From: Nitrospirota bacterium
Lineage (GTDB): Bacteria > Nitrospirota > Leptospirillia > Leptospirillales > Leptospirillaceae
DNA: 36,984 bases
Assembly (NCBI GenBank): GCA_021827365.1
Contig: JAKAWK010000008.1
Coordinates: 1-36,984, forward strand
Direction of reading: 5' to 3'
The first letter of the stretch is position 1. The number at the start of each line of letters is the position of its first letter. The notes under the pieces are model-generated. The model saw nothing but the letters and a program-made list of their open reading frames with translations. It had not been told where the DNA came from and did no database searches. Position numbers and translations under genes: made by a program. Shown one piece after another: positions 8,719 to 34,906 of this stretch.

Positions 8719-9611
8719 ACCTTCTTCATGCCGACCACTCCCGGCTCTTTACCCTCTCCGGCCGTCCCTTCCGGGCCGTTTACCCCGTCCTGTCGCGGCG
8801 GGCGGGGGGGCTCTCGATCGGAATCAACCTGAACTTCGACAAGGGGTGCAACTTCGACTGCATCTACTGCCAGGTCGACCGGACGGGACCCCTTCTTCCG
8901 GAGGGAGAGCTTCCGGCCCCAGAGCTCGTGATGGAGGAGATCGCCGCCCTTTTCGAGGCGTTGGATTCCGGCCGCTTCTATCAGGAGACGCCCTTCGGGG
9001 ACCTGCCCCCAGAGCTTCGGCAGGTGAAGGACATCGCCTTTTCCGGAGACGGGGAGCCGACCCTGGCCCCGTCCTTCCGGGAGGTCTCCCGGGCCGTCCG
9101 GGAATTTGTCGCAAGGCGGCCCTGGCCAGGGAACGCTCCGCCCCCCCTGCGCCTCATCACGAACGGGAGCGGACTTTTTGCCGGGGAAAGCCGAAGGCAA
9201 ACAGCAAAAACCTTTCTCGAAGACGGGCCGGGGGAGATCTGGCTCAAGCTTGATGCGGCGGATCCGGCCCACTTCGCCTTCATCAACCGCTCCCGGATCC
9301 CCTTTGACCGGATGATGCAGGGGCTCGACCTTGTGGTGTCCGATCTTCCCGTCACGATCCAGACCATGGTCCTGGACTTTGGTCAGGAGGGGGATCCGGA
9401 GGCCATGCCTGCGGACCGGACTCTCTGGGATCCCCTCCTGAAAAAAGTGGCGGGCTGGGCCGCAGAGGGGAGGGCGATCCGGGCCTGGCACCTCTACAGC
9501 GTCGCCCGCCCTCCCGCCCTCGAGGGCGTCCGGAAGGTTCCGGCGGAGCGTCTCGAGGCCTGGGCCCGGGAGGCCGCCTTCCTTCCCTTTCCGGTCCTCG
9601 TCTTCCCGTGA
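8694..9611 (+). CDS. Radical SAM protein
   Basis: 'GCNFDCIYCQVDRTG' CxxxCxxC cluster motif, 'IAFSGDGEPTLAP'; 7797-8693 of the ORF is an alternate frame of the PP-loop gene. Confidence 0.9.
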   Translation: MDSPMATMNLLHADHSRLFTLSGRPFRAVYPVLSRRAGGLSIGINLNFDKGCNFDCIYCQVDRTGPLLPEGELPAPELVMEEIAALFEALDSGRFYQETPFGDLPPELRQVKDIAFSGDGEPTLAPSFREVSRAVREFVARRPWPGNAPPPLRLITNGSGLFAGESRRQTAKTFLEDGPGEIWLKLDAADPAHFAFINRSRIPFDRMMQGLDLVVSDLPVTIQTMVLDFGQEGDPEAMPADRTLWDPLLKKVAGWAAEGRAIRAWHLYSVARPPALEGVRKVPAERLEAWAREAAFLPFPVLVFP

Positions 9612-10555
9612 GCGCACCGCTTGCGGAGTATTTCGTGGGCTACGCCGGCCTTGCCCACGACAGCGGTCCGGACCACCCCGAATCTCCGGCCCGGCTCTCT
9701 GCCCTTCTTCCGGTCCTCGAATCCCGGGTCGAAGGGGGGAAGGCCCGCTTTCTCGAGGTGAGCCCCGAGCCGGACCTTGGGATCTTCCGGGAGAGCCATA
9801 ATCCAGAGTACATCGACTTTCTCGAGTCGCTCGCCCCGACCGGTCCCCCGGTCGATCTTGACGGGGATACCCGGGTCGCCCACGCCACGGTCCGGGCCTT
9901 GAAGGAGATCGCCGGGGTCCTGCTCGACCTGTCGAAGACAGGGTCCGGGGTGGCTCGCCGTATCTTCTGCGCGGTGCGTCCTCCTGGCCACCATGCCCAT
10001 TTTTACGGGGGGATGGGATTCTGCGCGGTCAACCATCTGGCCACCCTGGCTGTGGCGAGGGCCCGGGCCAATCCGGCGGAAAGGATCCTTGTCCTCGATT
10101 TCGATGTCCACCACGGAAACGGAACCTTCGATATCCTGACACGGCTTCTTTCCCCGGACCAGTTTCTCTTCGTCAGCACCCACCGCTACCCGTTCTATCC
10201 CGGGACGGGCTCCGGGCGGGAAAACCGGGAGGGGCCCGGGGGATCGGGCATCCTCGATCTTCCGCTTCCGGCGGGAACCGACGACGAAGACTACCGGTTC
10301 GTGCTCGAAGAGAAGATCCTGCCGCGCTGGGACCGATTCTCCCCCGGGACGGTTCTTGTCAGCGCCGGCTTTGACGCGCATATCGCCGATCCGCTGGGAG
10401 ACATGGCCCTTTCGGAAAAGACCTACCGCCGTATCGGAGAGGCGCTGGCCGAACGGGAGCGGGGGCTTACGGCCTGTTTTCTCGAGGGAGGGTACAGTCT
10501 GCCGGCGCTGGCCCAGTCGGCCGACGCCTTTCTCTGTGGATGGGATCGGGAGTAG
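9608..10555 (+). CDS. Histone deacetylase / AcuC-family amidohydrolase
   Basis: 'HPESPARL', 'AVRPPGHHAHFYGGMGFCAVNHLA', 'VLDFDVHHGNGTFDI', 'VLVSAGFDAHIADPLGDM', 'LEGGYSL'. Confidence 0.94.
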   Translation: MSAPLAEYFVGYAGLAHDSGPDHPESPARLSALLPVLESRVEGGKARFLEVSPEPDLGIFRESHNPEYIDFLESLAPTGPPVDLDGDTRVAHATVRALKEIAGVLLDLSKTGSGVARRIFCAVRPPGHHAHFYGGMGFCAVNHLATLAVARARANPAERILVLDFDVHHGNGTFDILTRLLSPDQFLFVSTHRYPFYPGTGSGRENREGPGGSGILDLPLPAGTDDEDYRFVLEEKILPRWDRFSPGTVLVSAGFDAHIADPLGDMALSEKTYRRIGEALAERERGLTACFLEGGYSLPALAQSADAFLCGWDRE

Positions 10556-16903: not shown

Positions 16904-18991
16904 TCAATAACGTGCATCCGACGGTTTTTTTCCGTGAGGCCAATCCTTGATCTTATCTGGGAAATCCGGCCGAGGCATATGGGTAAAGTAAGCCGATACA
17001 TCGACAGCTTCCTGATCCGTCAGCCCACCCTGTCCCAGCGGTGTGTCCATGGAGTGGGAGATGGGCATGTTGTTCCTGACGAAGGCAGCGGCGGTATAGG
17101 TTTTGGCGATTCCCGCTCCGATATTGAAGGAGTGTGGTCCCCATAACGGAGGAAATATATAGGAACCGTGAGCATCCAGAAGACCTTCTCCGTGGGTTCC
17201 GTGACACGATGCGCAGTCCTGGCGGTAAATTTTCTTTCCATTCCCAAGGTCGGGCACAAGTCTCTTGCTGATCCCTCCGATCCCCCGCCCGGGAATGGTA
17301 TCGTGGCGATGAAAGCCCTCGTTCATCCAGTTCATATAAGCCACCATGGCGAGCATTGCTTTCGAGTGTTTGTCGAGAGCGGCTCCATTCATTGAGCGGA
17401 GGAAGCAGCCATTGATTCTGTCGGCCAGATCGATCACCTTCCCCGCCCGGGATGAATAGGAGGGAAACTGGGAGGCAAGGCCGGCAAAGGGAGAGGCATA
17501 GGCCATGGTTCCCGCATCGAGGTGGCAGCTTGAACAGGTAAGCTCATCCCCCACATTTTTTGGAAGAAGAGTCTTCGTCTCGATCATCAGACGCATTCCG
17601 TAAAGGATATCCTCCCGATGAGGATCTTTGAGGATCCCCGCGAGGCGAGGGGCAGCGTAGGATCCTGCGGAAGGAGGACGGGGAGTGATTTCAGAACGGA
17701 TCCTCCCGATCTGCTCGGGGGTGACCATCGAGGCATGATTTCCCCACGCTGTACGGATGAATGTGACGATCTGGGCCAGCTCCTCATCCGTCAACCTTCC
17801 GTAGTTCGGCATGGCGAAGGCCTTCGGATACTTCGCGGTCACCGCGGAGCGTGAGCCGGAGAGAATGACATGGACGACCGAGAGCGGATTGCTCGAAAGG
17901 ATGGACGGATTTTCCGCCAGGGAGGGGAAAAGGTTGGGCACACCCTTTCCGTCGAGCTGGTGACAGGAGGCGCAGAACTGGACATAGCCGAGCCCTCCCG
18001 GTGTCGTGAAGAGGGCGGCAGGGGATGTTTTCTGGGCGGGTGTTGTGGTTTCCTGTGTCCCGCCGGGAGAAGATCCGGGATTCATGACGAGCGACTTCAG
18101 ATAGACATCCATCGCGTGAAGGTCGCTGTCCGTGTATTTCTGTGTGCTGAAATGATCGACCTCGGCCATGATCCCGAATGCCGCGATCTGTCCATTCCGC
18201 CCGGTCTTCAGGAAGGTTTCGATCCCTTTGATCGATTGGGGATTCCTGAGGCTTGGGGCATACCACGAATCGATGGTGGCCCCGCTCAAATACTCCCGTC
18301 CATTCGGGCCTCTTTCGTCCATGGCCTTCTCCTGCAATCCGAATCCGCGAGGAGTGTGGCAAGAGCCGCAGTGGCCTAGTCCCTGAATGATATAGGCCCC
18401 TCGATTCCAGACGGCGGATTTGGAAGGATCCGGGCGATAAGGTCTGTCATCGAGAAATAGCCATTTCCACATGGACAGCCCCAGTCGAATATTGAAGGGC
18501 CAATGGATCCGGTTTTCTCTGTTCTCCTGATATATGGGCCTGACCCCATAAATCAGATAGGAATACAGCGCATACAGATCCTGATCCGTGATTTTTGCAT
18601 AGGAGGGATAAGGCATGGCCGGAAAGAGATTATTCCCCTTCCGGTCGATTCCGTCGCGCATGACCCGGATGAACTGGGCCAAGGAGTAGCCCCCTATCCC
18701 GGTATCGCGATCGGGCGTGATGTTTGTCGAATAGAGGATGCCGAAAGGGGTATTCATGGGAACTCCCCCGGCCAGGGGCTTCCCGCCGCGGGCCGTATGG
18801 CAGGCAAAACAGTCGCCCATATGGGCCAGATATTCTCCTTGCCGGATCGTGGCGGCATCGGGCGGCGGAGGGCTTGTGCCAGCCGATGCAGGGGCCGTCT
18901 GAAGGATGAATCCGAATACGGCTCCCATCAGACCAAGGAGAAGAGGGAGACGAAGCCAGGGACCTTTGGAGAACAGACCAATTGTACGCAT
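16904..18991 (-). CDS. Pentaheme c-type cytochrome: AdhB-like triheme module fused to TsdA-like thiosulfate dehydrogenase module
   Basis: Five CxxCH motifs (residues C61, C208, C340, C486, C593); N-part 'GEYLAHMGDCFACHTARGGKPLAGGVPMNTPFG.LYSTNITPD'; C-part 'LTCSSCHLDAGT', 'RINGCFLRSMNG', 'GKKIYRQDCASCHG..GEG', 'PPLWGPHSFNIGAGI'; signal peptide. Confidence 0.92.
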   Translation of the reverse strand: MRTIGLFSKGPWLRLPLLLGLMGAVFGFILQTAPASAGTSPPPPDAATIRQGEYLAHMGDCFACHTARGGKPLAGGVPMNTPFGILYSTNITPDRDTGIGGYSLAQFIRVMRDGIDRKGNNLFPAMPYPSYAKITDQDLYALYSYLIYGVRPIYQENRENRIHWPFNIRLGLSMWKWLFLDDRPYRPDPSKSAVWNRGAYIIQGLGHCGSCHTPRGFGLQEKAMDERGPNGREYLSGATIDSWYAPSLRNPQSIKGIETFLKTGRNGQIAAFGIMAEVDHFSTQKYTDSDLHAMDVYLKSLVMNPGSSPGGTQETTTPAQKTSPAALFTTPGGLGYVQFCASCHQLDGKGVPNLFPSLAENPSILSSNPLSVVHVILSGSRSAVTAKYPKAFAMPNYGRLTDEELAQIVTFIRTAWGNHASMVTPEQIGRIRSEITPRPPSAGSYAAPRLAGILKDPHREDILYGMRLMIETKTLLPKNVGDELTCSSCHLDAGTMAYASPFAGLASQFPSYSSRAGKVIDLADRINGCFLRSMNGAALDKHSKAMLAMVAYMNWMNEGFHRHDTIPGRGIGGISKRLVPDLGNGKKIYRQDCASCHGTHGEGLLDAHGSYIFPPLWGPHSFNIGAGIAKTYTAAAFVRNNMPISHSMDTPLGQGGLTDQEAVDVSAYFTHMPRPDFPDKIKDWPHGKKPSDARY

Positions 18992-19238: not shown

Positions 19239-20228
19239 CTACTTCAGGTTCTTCCTTGTGACTGGTTTGAATCCGTAGTGCTCGAACACATGGAGTGCCT
19301 CAGGCGACTTGAGAAAGGAGAGCCATCGTTTGGCCCACGCCACATGGCGGCTTCCCCGGATGAGTGCGGCGGCGTAAATGGCCCGGACATTCTGACTGTC
19401 TGGAATCGAGACTTCTTCAATGGGGTGGCCTTCCTCCTTCTGAAAGACGGCCTCGGATCTCCATGTGACTCCGGCATCTGCCTTCTTCCGCATCAAGACC
19501 ATCGGGCTTTGGCGATGGTGAATCCGGGTCAGAACGGTTTCTCCGTTTTTGACCTTGTCGACATAGACGGACTGAACGAGGCTCTTTCCGCCCGCCCTGA
19601 ACAGCGCCCCCTTGATCTGGCGGGCGACTCCTTCCCATGCGGGATTGGGCATCACCAGCCGGACCCCCGGTTTTCCGAGGTCTGCCAGACCCTTGATGCC
19701 GGCAGGATTGCCTTTGGGGACCATGATTGTCAGATCATTGGTGGCATACGCCACGGGTTTTCCGACGAGAAGATTGCGGCCCACCAGGCTCCGGACCTTT
19801 CTGAGCCCCGCGGCATAGACGTCACCGGGGATGGTCATGGTGGCGTTCCCGATCGTCAGACGTCCCTTCTTTGCGATCTGTTTTGCCAGAAGTCCGGGAG
19901 GAAGGGTCTCATAAAAAATTTTCCCCCGGATCTGGGGATATTTTTTTTCAAAGGCGTTGACGAGAGGAGCCATGGCAAAAAAGTAGTTTCCCCCGACGTA
20001 GAGGACAAGGCGGGGATGGGTGAGGTTCCCGTGGAGATCCGGAAGGTTGTCGACATCCGGCACTGTGACGTCAACCCCCTTGTCCACCGAGGGGTTGTTC
20101 CGTCCATGGCTCCAGGGGGGATAGATCTCCGATCCGGCCGCAAGGGCCTCGGGCGGAGAAAGGGGCACTCCATGGAAGAACACCATCAAGCTTGCGAGAA
20201 AAGCGGAAGCGAGTCGTGCGTTTTTCAT
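19239..20228 (-). CDS. Periplasmic ABC-type substrate-binding protein (ModA/type-II-like), no cognate transporter nearby
   Basis: Signal peptide 'MKNARLASAFLASLMVFFHGVPLSPPEALAA'; 'LVLYVGGNYFFAMAPLVNAFEKKYPQIRGKIFYETLPPG', 'ATNDLTIMVPKGNPAGIKGLADLGKPGVRLVMPNPAWEGVARQI'. Confidence 0.85.
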   Translation of the reverse strand: MKNARLASAFLASLMVFFHGVPLSPPEALAAGSEIYPPWSHGRNNPSVDKGVDVTVPDVDNLPDLHGNLTHPRLVLYVGGNYFFAMAPLVNAFEKKYPQIRGKIFYETLPPGLLAKQIAKKGRLTIGNATMTIPGDVYAAGLRKVRSLVGRNLLVGKPVAYATNDLTIMVPKGNPAGIKGLADLGKPGVRLVMPNPAWEGVARQIKGALFRAGGKSLVQSVYVDKVKNGETVLTRIHHRQSPMVLMRKKADAGVTWRSEAVFQKEEGHPIEEVSIPDSQNVRAIYAAALIRGSRHVAWAKRWLSFLKSPEALHVFEHYGFKPVTRKNLK

Positions 20229-20309
20229 ATCTTCTCCCATTATTCTCTTGGCAATCCAACTTTGTCTGATATGACTTCCCGGCATTGGTCAGGAATAGGT
20301 GAACGGGAC

Positions 20310-21113
20310 TCAGGAATGGGCATACTGGTACCCCGCCTCGGCCAGAAGGGGAAGTGTCCCCACAATGCCGGGTGTCAGCACGACACCGGGAATCAGGTGA
20401 TTGGTCAATTCGGCCGCAATCTCTCCATGGGTCTTGTGGTCGGGATTGATTCCGCCTTTTTTCAGCGCCCCGGAAAGCTCCCAGATCATGTTGTGACAGG
20501 CCAGAAAAACCACTCCCCGCGCCTGGAGAACCGGGATGTTATTGTCCTCGGGGGAGAGAACTCCGTGGGGATCGTTCAGGGAGGACAGGGGCTTTGACGA
20601 GGCGGGGGAAAGACGGACCAGAGGGTTGGTTTTGGATTTGACTTCCGCTTTTTCGTAAAGACGGTATTTCTCCCACATCTTGTCGTCAAACAAGGCCAGG
20701 TGGGCTGTTCCATGGGTGGCTGAAAGAACCAGGGCATCTTTTTTGCCAAAGCTGTAAACCTGGGCATTTAGGGAATTTCTCATGAGGTTGAGCCAGGGAG
20801 AGCCGAAGACGGTGTTGTCCCAGACTTGTTTCGGCTTTCCGTGGTAATGGAGAAGAAGGGCAATGGCCTCATGATCCCATTCGTCCCGATGGAGGCTGAT
20901 CATCGTAAGGTTTCGATAGTCGCGGCGTTTTTTCACTTTGGCCAGGGCAGAAAGGAGCGCGTGGAGTTGGTGATCCCCTCGGGGTTCCAGATCGAGGTGT
21001 TCCGACGCCGATGCCAGGGGGAGCTTTCCATTTCCAAGGGCCAGCCCCAGTCCGGCCGTTCCCATCATGGCCACCATTCCCATCATTTCCCGGCGTGACA
21101 TAGATCGACTCAT
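20310..21113 (-). CDS. Tat-signal protein with DsrE-like fold
   Basis: 'MSRSMSRREMMGMVAMMGTAGLGLALG' Tat-type leader; C-term 'ARGVVFLACHNMIWELSGAL...HLIPGVVLTPGIVGTLPLLAEAGYQYA' resembles DsrE-family C termini. Confidence 0.72.
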   Translation of the reverse strand: MSRSMSRREMMGMVAMMGTAGLGLALGNGKLPLASASEHLDLEPRGDHQLHALLSALAKVKKRRDYRNLTMISLHRDEWDHEAIALLLHYHGKPKQVWDNTVFGSPWLNLMRNSLNAQVYSFGKKDALVLSATHGTAHLALFDDKMWEKYRLYEKAEVKSKTNPLVRLSPASSKPLSSLNDPHGVLSPEDNNIPVLQARGVVFLACHNMIWELSGALKKGGINPDHKTHGEIAAELTNHLIPGVVLTPGIVGTLPLLAEAGYQYAHS

Positions 21114-23258: not shown

Positions 23259-24192
23259 AAGCCCCCGGTACCGCGATATATTTCTGGAACAAGGACGGGT
23301 GCTGACCAGGGAGGATCATGCCGCGGAGGTTGTTCTATGGCAGAGCCGGTCAAGAAAGGCCTCGAAGCGGCCGGAGAGCGATGATGGCGTGGTCTCCCCC
23401 TTGAGACCCGGGCCTGCCGCTACCCTTCAACCGGGCACCGACAAGGCTCTTTGACCCTGCCTCGACCCGGTCAGGGGAGCTACGGAAGCCACGGGTCCTG
23501 AAGCTTTGACGTCCATGCATTCCCGGTCGCTCTTAACGTTGGCGGTACAAGGACAAGCCTCGGGGAAAGGCTTTTGGTGGCGGAAAGGGGAGCCATCAGG
23601 ACGTCGGAACGGCCCTCCTTGATGATCGGTAGAGGGTTGTACTCGTATTTTCGATCCTATCGGGGAGGCGTCAAAAGGCAACGCCATGCCGGTCCAGATA
23701 ACGAGAAGACCCGCCTCTTGTCTCCGCGGCTCTTGGAGATCTTGCCAGAGCCAACGGATGACCCAAATTGCCCCGAAACTGGTCTCGGCCGCGGAATCCT
23801 TGAGAGGCCTCAAAAATGGCGGTCTTTCCGGAATCTTTCCCGGAAAATACGGGTAAAGGGGGATTTTTGTCTTTTTAGTCCCGTTTTCGTTTTCCGCCTT
23901 CTTTAGAGTCTTCCTGAAAATAATAAACGCTTCACTCACACCCATCAGCCCGCCGGGGGGAAGGCAAAGTTTTCATGAAGGAAAAGTCCCTCCCATCGTT
24001 TGCAAAGTGGAGCGATTGTGGATACAATCAAGGTCATTTTCCGAATTCGACAGTTTGTGATCTTGTTTTCCTTTCCAGAGAAAGGCTTTCCGCTCCTCTC
24101 TGGTCTGTCTTTCCCTGTTCTTTGCAGGTGGCGGAGGCCTTCCGCCTTTGTTGGGCATTTTCATAAAAACATCTCGGATCCGGAGGGTTTGC

Positions 24193-25248
24193 ATGGGAAA
24201 ATATGGAAATGGAAAAGGGGCCCGGACAACGTGGGGCGGGAAGATTCGCAATCGGATTCTGTCCGGACTTATGGCCTGTGCCATGGCCGCAGGGATTTTT
24301 GGGGCGGGACTTTCCCTTGGAGGAGTTCCCGTGGCCGGGGCTGCCGATCGCTGGCAATTTGCGGACTCTCTCGGAGTCGGCAATCCCTTTGACGGGGTCG
24401 ACTTCATCAGCGCGAACGAAGGCTGGGTCTCCGGGGCCTCCGGCGTCATCATCCACACCACCGACGGCGGGAAGACCTGGATTCCTCTCAATACCGGAAC
24501 GACCCACTGGATCCATTCGGTGGACTTCGTCGATCAGAAGCACGGCTGGGCCGCCGGAAACAACGGTCTCATCCTCGCGACCGACGACGGGGGAAAAAGC
24601 TGGTCGACCCAGGAGACAGGCATTCCGTTCGACCTCTATTCCGTGACCTTCTCTGACCGGCAAAACGGCTGGGCATCAGGGTTTGCCGGAACCCTCCTTC
24701 ACACGACGGACGGAGGCGCCCATTGGGCGAAGGTCTCGACCGACACTGCCCAGTGGATCATGCGGGTGACCTTCCTCAAGGGCGACCCGAGCCACGGTTG
24801 GGCCGTCGGACAGGAGGGCCTGGTCCTCTCGACGACAGATGGCGGCAACACCTGGAAGAAGCAGAACAATTCTGTGCGCAAGGATCTTTACGGAGTCAGC
24901 TTTATCGACCAGAACCGCGGATGGGTGGTCGGAACGCACGGGATCATCGAATACACCTCAAACGGCGGCCAGAGCTGGGTCATCCAGAATGGTCCGGGCC
25001 GCGGACCTCTGACCTGGAGCGTGGCCGGCATGGAGCGCGAGTCCAATGACCTGCACACCGTGGTCTTCCTCAACGACAAGGTGGGCTATGTCACGGGGGT
25101 TCTCGGGATCTTCATGAAGACGGTCGATGGCGGCAACAACTGGACCCTCATCAAGAGCGGCACAAAACTGGATCTTTACGGGATGACATTTCCGGATCCC
25201 TCCCACGGGTGGGTGGTCGGCGTCGGAGGCATGATCCTTCATTCCTGA
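24193..25248 (+). CDS. YCF48/HCF136-like (BNR-type beta-propeller) exported protein
   Basis: Signal peptide; repeats '..EGWVSGASGVIIHTTDGGKTW', 'HGWAAGNNGLILATDDGGKSW', 'GWASGFAGTLLHTTDGGAHW', 'GWAVGQEGLVLSTTDGGNTW'. Confidence 0.93.
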   Translation: MGKYGNGKGARTTWGGKIRNRILSGLMACAMAAGIFGAGLSLGGVPVAGAADRWQFADSLGVGNPFDGVDFISANEGWVSGASGVIIHTTDGGKTWIPLNTGTTHWIHSVDFVDQKHGWAAGNNGLILATDDGGKSWSTQETGIPFDLYSVTFSDRQNGWASGFAGTLLHTTDGGAHWAKVSTDTAQWIMRVTFLKGDPSHGWAVGQEGLVLSTTDGGNTWKKQNNSVRKDLYGVSFIDQNRGWVVGTHGIIEYTSNGGQSWVIQNGPGRGPLTWSVAGMERESNDLHTVVFLNDKVGYVTGVLGIFMKTVDGGNNWTLIKSGTKLDLYGMTFPDPSHGWVVGVGGMILHS

Positions 25249-25319: not shown

Positions 25320-25964
25320 ATGATCAGTTATATTCCCCTCACATTCTTTGGCATTATCGCGGCGGTGGGACTCGCCTTTTTTGTTCACGGCTTCGTCAAT
25401 CGCCAGAAAATATTTGCCGCCTTCACCGACCTCGCCTCCCGTCTTTCGGGGGCGGCAGGACGTTCGGCCATCTGGGCCTACCCGTACCTTTCCGGGACCT
25501 ATGAGGGGCGTCCGGTGAAGATCTTTTTCCATACGGCGGAAAACCACACCGTCAGCGTCTTGAATCTCGTCGTGGAGCTGGGAGTCGGAACACCCGACAG
25601 GGTGCTGCTCCTCCAGAAGGACGGTTTCCGGGATCCGAAGCCGGAACAGAAGGCCAAGCTCGAGGAAGAGGTCGGACCGGTTGTTCCGGTCACCGGGATA
25701 CCCTTCGATGTCCGCTCTCCGGAGCCCGGGCGGGCGGTGGCTCTCCTGCGATCCCCCGAACTGGCCCGGGAGATTTCTGCCCTGACCCCCTACAACCAGA
25801 TTCTTCTGTGGGACGGCTCCCTGATCGCGAGCAAGCAGTTCGAAGGGGTGGCTGAAACTCTTCCCGACGCCATGTTGTCAACCCTGACCCGCATCCTCTC
25901 CCTCGCCCGACGCTTCGAGGATCTTCATCCGGGGGCGGAAAAGATCGGGGCGCAGACCGCCTGA
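25320..25964 (+). CDS. Hypothetical single-TM membrane protein
   Basis: N-terminal TM 'LTFFGIIAAVGLAFFVHGFV'; ATGA overlap with next gene. Confidence 0.75.
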   Translation: MISYIPLTFFGIIAAVGLAFFVHGFVNRQKIFAAFTDLASRLSGAAGRSAIWAYPYLSGTYEGRPVKIFFHTAENHTVSVLNLVVELGVGTPDRVLLLQKDGFRDPKPEQKAKLEEEVGPVVPVTGIPFDVRSPEPGRAVALLRSPELAREISALTPYNQILLWDGSLIASKQFEGVAETLPDAMLSTLTRILSLARRFEDLHPGAEKIGAQTA

Positions 25965-26320
25965 TGGAGGCTGGTTCGGTGCCGCGTGTGGTCATGCTCC
26001 TTATGAAAAGCCCAGAATGGACGCCCTATGCGACGGTCGTCCGTCTGGCCCGTTCCTTCGTTACGGCCGGGGCCCATCTGACGGTCTTTGTGATGGACGA
26101 CGCGATCCTTGGCCTTGTTCCGGTTCACGGAAGGGGCCCGGACTCCTATCCTCTCTTCCCCGTGCTTCTGGCGGGGGGCGAAATTGCCGTGTGCCAGTCC
26201 ACGGCGGAAATCCGGGGACTGGGGCCAGGAACTCTCCCCGCGAAGGTCCGTTTTGAAACCCAGGTCCAGCTGGGCCAGCTTGCCGGATCCGCCGACCTCT
26301 TTCTTCCCTTTACGACGTAG
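25964..26320 (+). CDS. DsrE/TusD-like sulfur-relay family protein
   Basis: 'VVMLLMKSPEWTPYATVVRLARSFVTAGAHLTVFVMDDAILGL', 'GGEIAVCQSTAEIRGL' candidate sulfur-acceptor Cys. Confidence 0.68.
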   Translation: MEAGSVPRVVMLLMKSPEWTPYATVVRLARSFVTAGAHLTVFVMDDAILGLVPVHGRGPDSYPLFPVLLAGGEIAVCQSTAEIRGLGPGTLPAKVRFETQVQLGQLAGSADLFLPFTT

Positions 26321-33938: not shown

Positions 33939-34004
33939 GGGGAAAAGTGTAAAAATTTTTTGATATTTGTGTGAAATATGCGGCCCTTCCTTGTTTTTGT
34001 AAGC

Positions 34005-34020
34005 TTGCACAGAATTTGCT
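34005..34020 (+). promoter_or_regulatory. Sigma-54 (-24/-12) promoter candidate
   Basis: TTGCAC-AGAAT-TTGCT versus consensus TGGCAC-N5-TTGCW; 55 bp upstream of ATG 34076. Confidence 0.65.
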
Positions 34021-34075
34021 CGTAAATAGTTTGATGGTTCTGAGATTTACAATAACGATTTGGGGGGAGGGGACA

Positions 34076-34906
34076 ATGGCAATTTCAGGACGGTGTGTCA
34101 TGTGGGCAACCCTGACCGGTTTTCTGATCTTTTTGTTGTTTTCAGGCAGGCCTCAGGAGGCCCTGGCAAATTATTATGAAGTGACAGCATCCGGTACCTG
34201 GTCGACCTTTTCACAAGATACCGCATCAGTATTTAGCAGTAACGGAGGTAATAACGGAAATTGGGAATTTTCCTTCGACTTGCCGGCCAGTTTGACTTTA
34301 AGCAGCCAGACAAACTCCTTGTCGACTTCATCAGGTCTTGTGTTCTCATATCCGGGATTGACGACCTACCAGGCGCAAAACTTTCAGTTAAACAACCTGG
34401 CTTCCACTCAGGATGCCTTTGTCAATCAATCCGGATCCCATTCAGGGACCTTTGGATCGTTTGGAAGCGGAACCTTTTATTACAGCGGGGGAATCACCTT
34501 TGGAACAGGCTCAACCATTTCCGGGGGAGTCTCTGGATTCTCCGACAATGGGTTTTTGTTTGAAACCTGTCTTAGCGGATGCCAAACTGAACCCTCACTA
34601 TACGGCCCCGACGGGTTTTTTGTCTCGGTACCAGGAACGAATGGAATCTTGCTCTCCTCCAGCACTGATACGACCGGGAATTCCTTAAATCTGTTTTCAG
34701 GGAATATTGATTTGAACTTGGATGGGGGCGCCGGGATTGGATCGGGAACAATGAGTATTACGGAATTTTCGGGCCAGATTCCGGGAACGGGGCAAGGAAC
34801 CCTGGCCGCCACCCCCGAACCCGCCTCCTGGCTTCTGTTCGGAACCGGGATGCTCCTGATGGGAGGTGTGGCCGTCCGCAGGAGAGAGCGTCTGAATCGG
34901 ATCTGA
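34076..34906 (+). CDS. PEP-CTERM sorting-domain exported protein
   Basis: Signal peptide 'MWATLTGFLIFLLFSGRPQEALA'; Ser/Thr/Gly-rich body; C-terminal 'TPEPASWLLFGTGMLLMGGVAVRRRERLNRI'. Confidence 0.92.
   Translation: MAISGRCVMWATLTGFLIFLLFSGRPQEALANYYEVTASGTWSTFSQDTASVFSSNGGNNGNWEFSFDLPASLTLSSQTNSLSTSSGLVFSYPGLTTYQAQNFQLNNLASTQDAFVNQSGSHSGTFGSFGSGTFYYSGGITFGTGSTISGGVSGFSDNGFLFETCLSGCQTEPSLYGPDGFFVSVPGTNGILLSSSTDTTGNSLNLFSGNIDLNLDGGAGIGSGTMSITEFSGQIPGTGQGTLAATPEPASWLLFGTGMLLMGGVAVRRRERLNRI

Follow-up and report, generated by a model that had tools for sequence, protein, structure and literature searches.

TsdA enzymes, which act on thiosulfate and tetrathionate, work in both directions. AdhB-type subunits are cytochromes that hand electrons to ubiquinone in membrane-bound alcohol and fructose dehydrogenases, and they carry a C-terminal extension that serves as a membrane anchor. 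Among the described TsdA systems, that of A. vinosum (4v2k, 4wqc) is a stand-alone diheme enzyme with Lys-Met at heme 2. The C. jejuni enzyme (CjTsdA), with Asn-Met at heme 2 and bidirectional chemistry, is also without a fused relay and functions in vivo as a tetrathionate reductase (PMC5146829). In M. purpuratum TsdBA (MpTsdBA; 5lo9), a cytochrome relay, the diheme TsdB, comes first and TsdA second within a single chain.

The 36,984-nucleotide stretch of Nitrospirota DNA that we analysed (the window) encodes a protein with the layout of MpTsdBA, a relay followed by a homologous TsdA domain in one chain, but its front part is a triheme AdhB-type cytochrome that does not align with TsdB. The C-terminal part shares with A. 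vinosum TsdA the CxxCH pair, the active-site Cys and the heme-2 Met, at about 40% identity, whereas its Asn-Met at heme 2 is that of CjTsdA. The N-terminal part has the three CxxCH domains of AdhB-type subunits (8gy2, 7w2j), to which it is 34-41% identical in structural alignment; in PQQ or flavin dehydrogenases these form a subunit of their own, whereas in the fusion TsdA appears in place of the C-terminal extension. Here the thiosulfate/tetrathionate chemistry and the three-heme relay to which it is directly wired share one chain.

The fusion gene (16904..18991, minus strand; ATG at 18991, stop at 16904) is a single uninterrupted ORF of 695 aa with five CxxCH motifs, just as an earlier note on this DNA, which named no strand, had described it. 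Its hydrophobic N-terminal segment (residues 1-38, 18878..18991, minus strand, as are all features of this gene) looks like a cleavable signal peptide, with a plausible cleavage site between ASA and G, and evolves fast compared with the AdhB and TsdA domains. The AdhB-type triheme cytochrome domain (residues 41-434, 17690..18871) contains heme sites 1 to 3, at residue 61 (CFACH, 18797..18811), residue 208 (CGSCH, 18356..18370) and residue 340 (CASCH, 17960..17974). A linker (residues 435-445, 17657..17689), which by alignments and spacing lies in the position of the AdhB C-terminal extension, leads into the TsdA thiosulfate dehydrogenase domain (residues 446-695, 16907..17656). There, heme site 4 at residue 486 (CSSCH, 17522..17536) aligns with TsdA heme 1, the active-site heme, and heme site 5 at residue 593 (CASCH, 17201..17215) with TsdA heme 2.

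Both domains were recovered by independent means. In phmmer searches against solved structures, residues 41-462 matched AdhB-type subunits (8gy2_B, E = 8e-97; also 8hdd_B and 7w2j_C), with a tail past about residue 434 that aligns poorly; residues 446-686 matched TsdA (4wqc, E = 3e-53; also 4v2k and 5lo9). Pfam returned cytochrome c domains and the SoxA/TsdA family PF21342, at 54.5 bits against a cut-off of 27. An AlphaFold model of moderate confidence (pLDDT 69, pTM 0.70), which supports both domains and is too coarse for heme distances, retrieved 8gy2_B, 8jej_C and TsdA entries from the PDB by Foldseek, with a TM score of 0.75-0.78 on the target for the AdhB-type part. Pfam, phmmer and Foldseek therefore bear out the division into an N-terminal AdhB-type triheme part and a C-terminal TsdA diheme part made in the earlier note; the domain scan that it had called for assigns the C-terminus to the TsdA family (PF21342 and the TsdA structures), and the model that it had called for confirms both the AdhB-type and the TsdA fold. 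A TsdB-type front domain was ruled out: the front is triheme and AdhB-like, and in phmmer 5lo9 aligns to the fusion over its TsdA part only.

Across 86 fusions the spacing from the end of the AdhB part to the start of TsdA is nearly constant, at 33-38 residues, and no hydrophobic segment was found at the junction. Because the spacing is so uniform and the junction is not hydrophobic, the C-terminal membrane extension of AdhB appears to have been replaced. In some fusions the N-terminal segment is hydrophobic but shows no obvious cleavage site, and to judge from these sequences some proteobacterial fusions may keep this segment as a membrane anchor.

Cys529 (codon 17405..17407), predicted to ligate the active-site heme axially, lies within RINGCFLRSMNG and aligns to the cysteine that A. 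vinosum TsdA has in RIGDCFERSLNG, which agrees with its earlier reading as a His/Cys-type ligand. Met642 (codon 17066..17068), predicted to coordinate TsdA heme 2 axially, aligns to the heme-2 Met of A. vinosum TsdA and is preceded by Asn, not Lys. In 37 aligned fusions, Cys529 and Met642 are invariant, as are the five heme motifs and Met126, Met275 and Met394, the last three being candidate ligands of the AdhB-type hemes. Where TsdA domains have RVNGC (heme 1) or NMVM (heme 2) variants, the Cys and the Met are still kept.

We infer the activity, direction and electron acceptor of the fusion as follows. The protein is probably an exported five-heme thiosulfate dehydrogenase of the S4-intermediate pathway that delivers electrons to a periplasmic cytochrome c and a terminal oxidase. 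At the His/Cys-ligated heme (Cys529), its TsdA domain would couple two thiosulfates to form tetrathionate, and the electrons would pass from this active-site heme to the His/Met heme 2, from heme 2 into the fused AdhB-type triheme relay, which would occupy the place that TsdB has in TsdBA, and from the relay to periplasmic cytochrome c and the terminal oxidase.

Two genes, A and B, lie upstream of the fusion on the same strand, in the order A-B-fusion. Gene A (20310..21113, minus strand) encodes a TAT-signal protein with a conserved Cys206 (CHN). Neither Pfam, at its cut-off, nor the PDB yielded a match for it, and an AlphaFold model built from five sequences (pLDDT 39) is uninformative for its fold; that A is a DsrE-like carrier is a suspicion. 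Homologues of A are annotated as 'transcriptional initiation protein Tat' and are found mostly alongside sulfur-oxidation genes. Gene B (19239..20285, minus strand) encodes a periplasmic binding protein of the SBP_bac_11 family (Pfam E = 2e-49), sulfate/molybdate-binding-like, with a weak resemblance to sulfate-binding proteins. No ABC transporter adjoins B, which is partnered with A across phyla.

Three related genomes (G003, G006 and G010) keep the order A-B-fusion, as does a single proteobacterial MAG (L035); G015 has the fusion without A-B alongside. At locus L023, A and B adjoin a tetraheme TsdBA-type gene; in Bradyrhizobium, Methylobacterium and Paraburkholderia, tsdB- and tsdA-like genes adjoin A and/or B, and in Gluconobacter DoxDA does so. 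Komagataeibacter has B together with tsdB, tsdA and cbb3-type oxidase genes, and Methylobacterium has A-B together with tsdBA and oxidase genes. From these neighbours, with the one exception of Methylocella, where A without B adjoins a DsbA-like gene, it follows that A-B travels with thiosulfate-to-tetrathionate systems. The association suggests roles for A and B in the thiosulfate/tetrathionate pathway and makes the pair a new lead on periplasmic thiosulfate or tetrathionate handling.

Pyrite breakdown in acid mine systems runs via thiosulfate. The host genome encodes cytochrome 579, above the curated cut-off, and is Leptospirillum-like on that basis, cytochrome 579 being the iron-oxidation cytochrome of Leptospirillum (PMC9592645). 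It also encodes a tetrathionate hydrolase (C33:23656-25173; L139 820-2340) that matches 6l8a, the At. ferrooxidans TTH, with E = 1e-162, and that is present at no less than 75% identity in 10 of the genus's 14 genomes, among them every one of the four that carry the fusion. Two gene pairs, each a diheme TsdB-like gene with a tsdA, were found on C71 (L114 7591-9206) and C115 (L115 625-2131), both on the minus strand; in this draft assembly both pairs and the hydrolase lie on contigs other than that of the fusion. As the draft is 87% complete, gene absences are provisional, and within it neither SoxB nor DoxD was detected. A thiosulfate-to-tetrathionate enzyme together with tetrathionate hydrolase makes up the S4-intermediate gene set (PMC10859504), and the host, as read from its genes, has this set in the form of the fusion, the two tsdB-tsdA pairs and the hydrolase. 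The acidophilic, iron-oxidising group to which the host belongs is not known to use this pathway. The three TsdA-type enzymes would make tetrathionate from thiosulfate, and tetrathionate hydrolase would then cleave it.

L. ferriphilum and L. ferrooxidans are entered as sulfur-negative in a published table (PMC11035876); contrary to it, sulfur could serve as an electron source for a Leptospirillum-like host that has both the fusion and tetrathionate hydrolase. More tentatively, a widespread but uncharacterised enzyme class, in which an AdhB-type triheme module replaces TsdB, might together with A and B as undescribed periplasmic partners give the Leptospirillum family, listed as oxidising iron and not sulfur, a working S4-intermediate thiosulfate pathway.

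The alternative that stands closest to this proposal differs from it in the acceptor alone: the fusion would be a thiosulfate:quinone oxidoreductase whose AdhB-type domain passes electrons to membrane quinone, the wire to the quinone pool raised in the earlier note. The AdhB-type subunits of membrane-bound alcohol and fructose dehydrogenases are established reductants of ubiquinone, the three AdhB-type heme motifs are conserved in the fusion together with Met126, Met275 and Met394, and those fusions whose N-terminal hydrophobic segment lacks an obvious cleavage site are possibly membrane-anchored. Against this, TsdA stands where AdhB has its C-terminal anchor extension, the junction lacks a hydrophobic stretch, and the thiosulfate/tetrathionate couple at +198 mV (PMC5146829) makes electron transfer to ubiquinone slightly uphill at neutral pH; in an acid periplasm, we infer, the same transfer would be favourable. 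Because the clusters that share A and B place tsdBA beside terminal oxidase genes, cytochrome c and oxygen are at least as likely an acceptor as quinone, and we regard the quinone route as possible though rather unlikely.

If the enzyme instead ran in reverse, as CjTsdA does in C. jejuni, quinol or cytochrome c would feed the AdhB-type domain and, through it, a tetrathionate-reducing TsdA. Eleven proteobacterial loci encode, close to the fusion, a TtrS-like sensor kinase with a PhnD-type binding domain, usually accompanied by a TtrR-like regulator. Such TtrSR-like neighbours fit reduction, yet the TtrRS system of V. parahaemolyticus, which senses tetrathionate, switches on a tsdBA that oxidises thiosulfate (PMC11293645), and no TtrSR lies beside the fusion in the window. 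The Asn before the heme-2 Met, as in CjTsdA, would also suit a reductase; however, CjTsdA, which is reductive, and MpTsdBA, which is oxidative, both have Asn-Met, and because it occurs in enzymes of opposite bias the heme-2 residues cannot settle direction, so that this criterion was abandoned. Since the host genome further carries tetrathionate hydrolase and additional TsdBA copies, and the A and B neighbours in other genomes accompany oxidases and DoxDA, we consider a reductase unlikely, and slightly less likely than the quinone route.

It is far less probable still that the AdhB half belongs with some other dehydrogenase, for alcohols or sugars, and that the TsdA half is incidental. The front domain does resemble the cytochrome subunits of alcohol, glucose and fructose dehydrogenases, and we class it as AdhB-like only. 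However, no large subunit of such a type adjoins the fusion gene, the TsdA ligands are invariant and both halves are equally constrained. Neither the GMC C-terminal domain (GMC_oxred_C) nor gluconate dehydrogenase subunit 3 (Gluconate_2-dh3) was found in the 87% complete host genome, which disfavours a GMC or gluconate dehydrogenase as the partner. The genome encodes two PQQ_2 proteins, one of which is the tetrathionate hydrolase; neither adjoins the fusion.

A sequencing or assembly error that joined two separate genes, a worry voiced in the earlier note and one to which the separate adjacent adhB-like and tsdA genes of Paracoccus versutus might lend colour, can be dismissed, since four related genomes carry the fusion at 82-90% identity, 78 of the 80 best homologous loci show it as well, the linker length is nearly constant, and dN/dS between the relatives and the window gene is about 0.09-0.15 in both halves, indicating purifying selection on each. 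The 78 full fusions are those among the best 80 of 407 relatives retrieved with the TsdA part from bacterial and archaeal genomes; three of the 80 loci (L029-L031) probably belong to the relatives G010, G006 and G003 themselves. The earlier note knew of no described enzyme with this domain order; the idea that the order is unusual or unique did not hold up against so widespread a family. Its carriers are mainly Proteobacteria and include Pseudomonas, Burkholderiales, Rhizobiales, Rhodobacterales, Zoogloea and Gallionella, with Paraburkholderia, Rhodopseudomonas, Xanthobacter, Azospira and Methylobacter also among the best 80. Full-length homologues of 50-54% identity are plasmid-borne in Burkholderia, Cupriavidus metallidurans, Rhizobium, Thioclava and Ideonella. 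Our search of the openly licensed literature found no published description of an AdhB-TsdA fusion, an architecture that is widespread yet apparently undescribed. Databases annotate the fusion homologues as 'c-type cytochrome' only, and with that label thiosulfate oxidation may be missed in many species.

In a quick tree of TsdA sequences, the fusion domains and the TsdA of Paracoccus versutus form a clade (99% SH-aLRT), with the unfused Paracoccus sequence beside the fused ones; the fusions of the Leptospirillum family make up one branch (100%) that groups with proteobacterial MAGs (91). The topology suggests a single origin of the fusion and a transfer between phyla, although a quick tree with long branches is no proof of it. 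In three proteobacterial MAGs (L035, L037 and L040), the fused TsdA has GCM in place of GCF after the active-site Cys, and AKNVMP in place of xxNMP at heme 2. At loci L042, L045, L052, L063 and L099, the proteobacterial fusion is followed, about 0.8-1 kb downstream, by a second TsdA-like diheme gene.

Elsewhere in the window, all on the plus strand, are genes for a histone deacetylase-family protein (9608-10555), a YCF48-like (PSII_BNR) protein (24148-25248), a DsrE-like protein for which PF02635 scored just above cut-off (25964-26320) and a PEP-CTERM protein (33971-34906).
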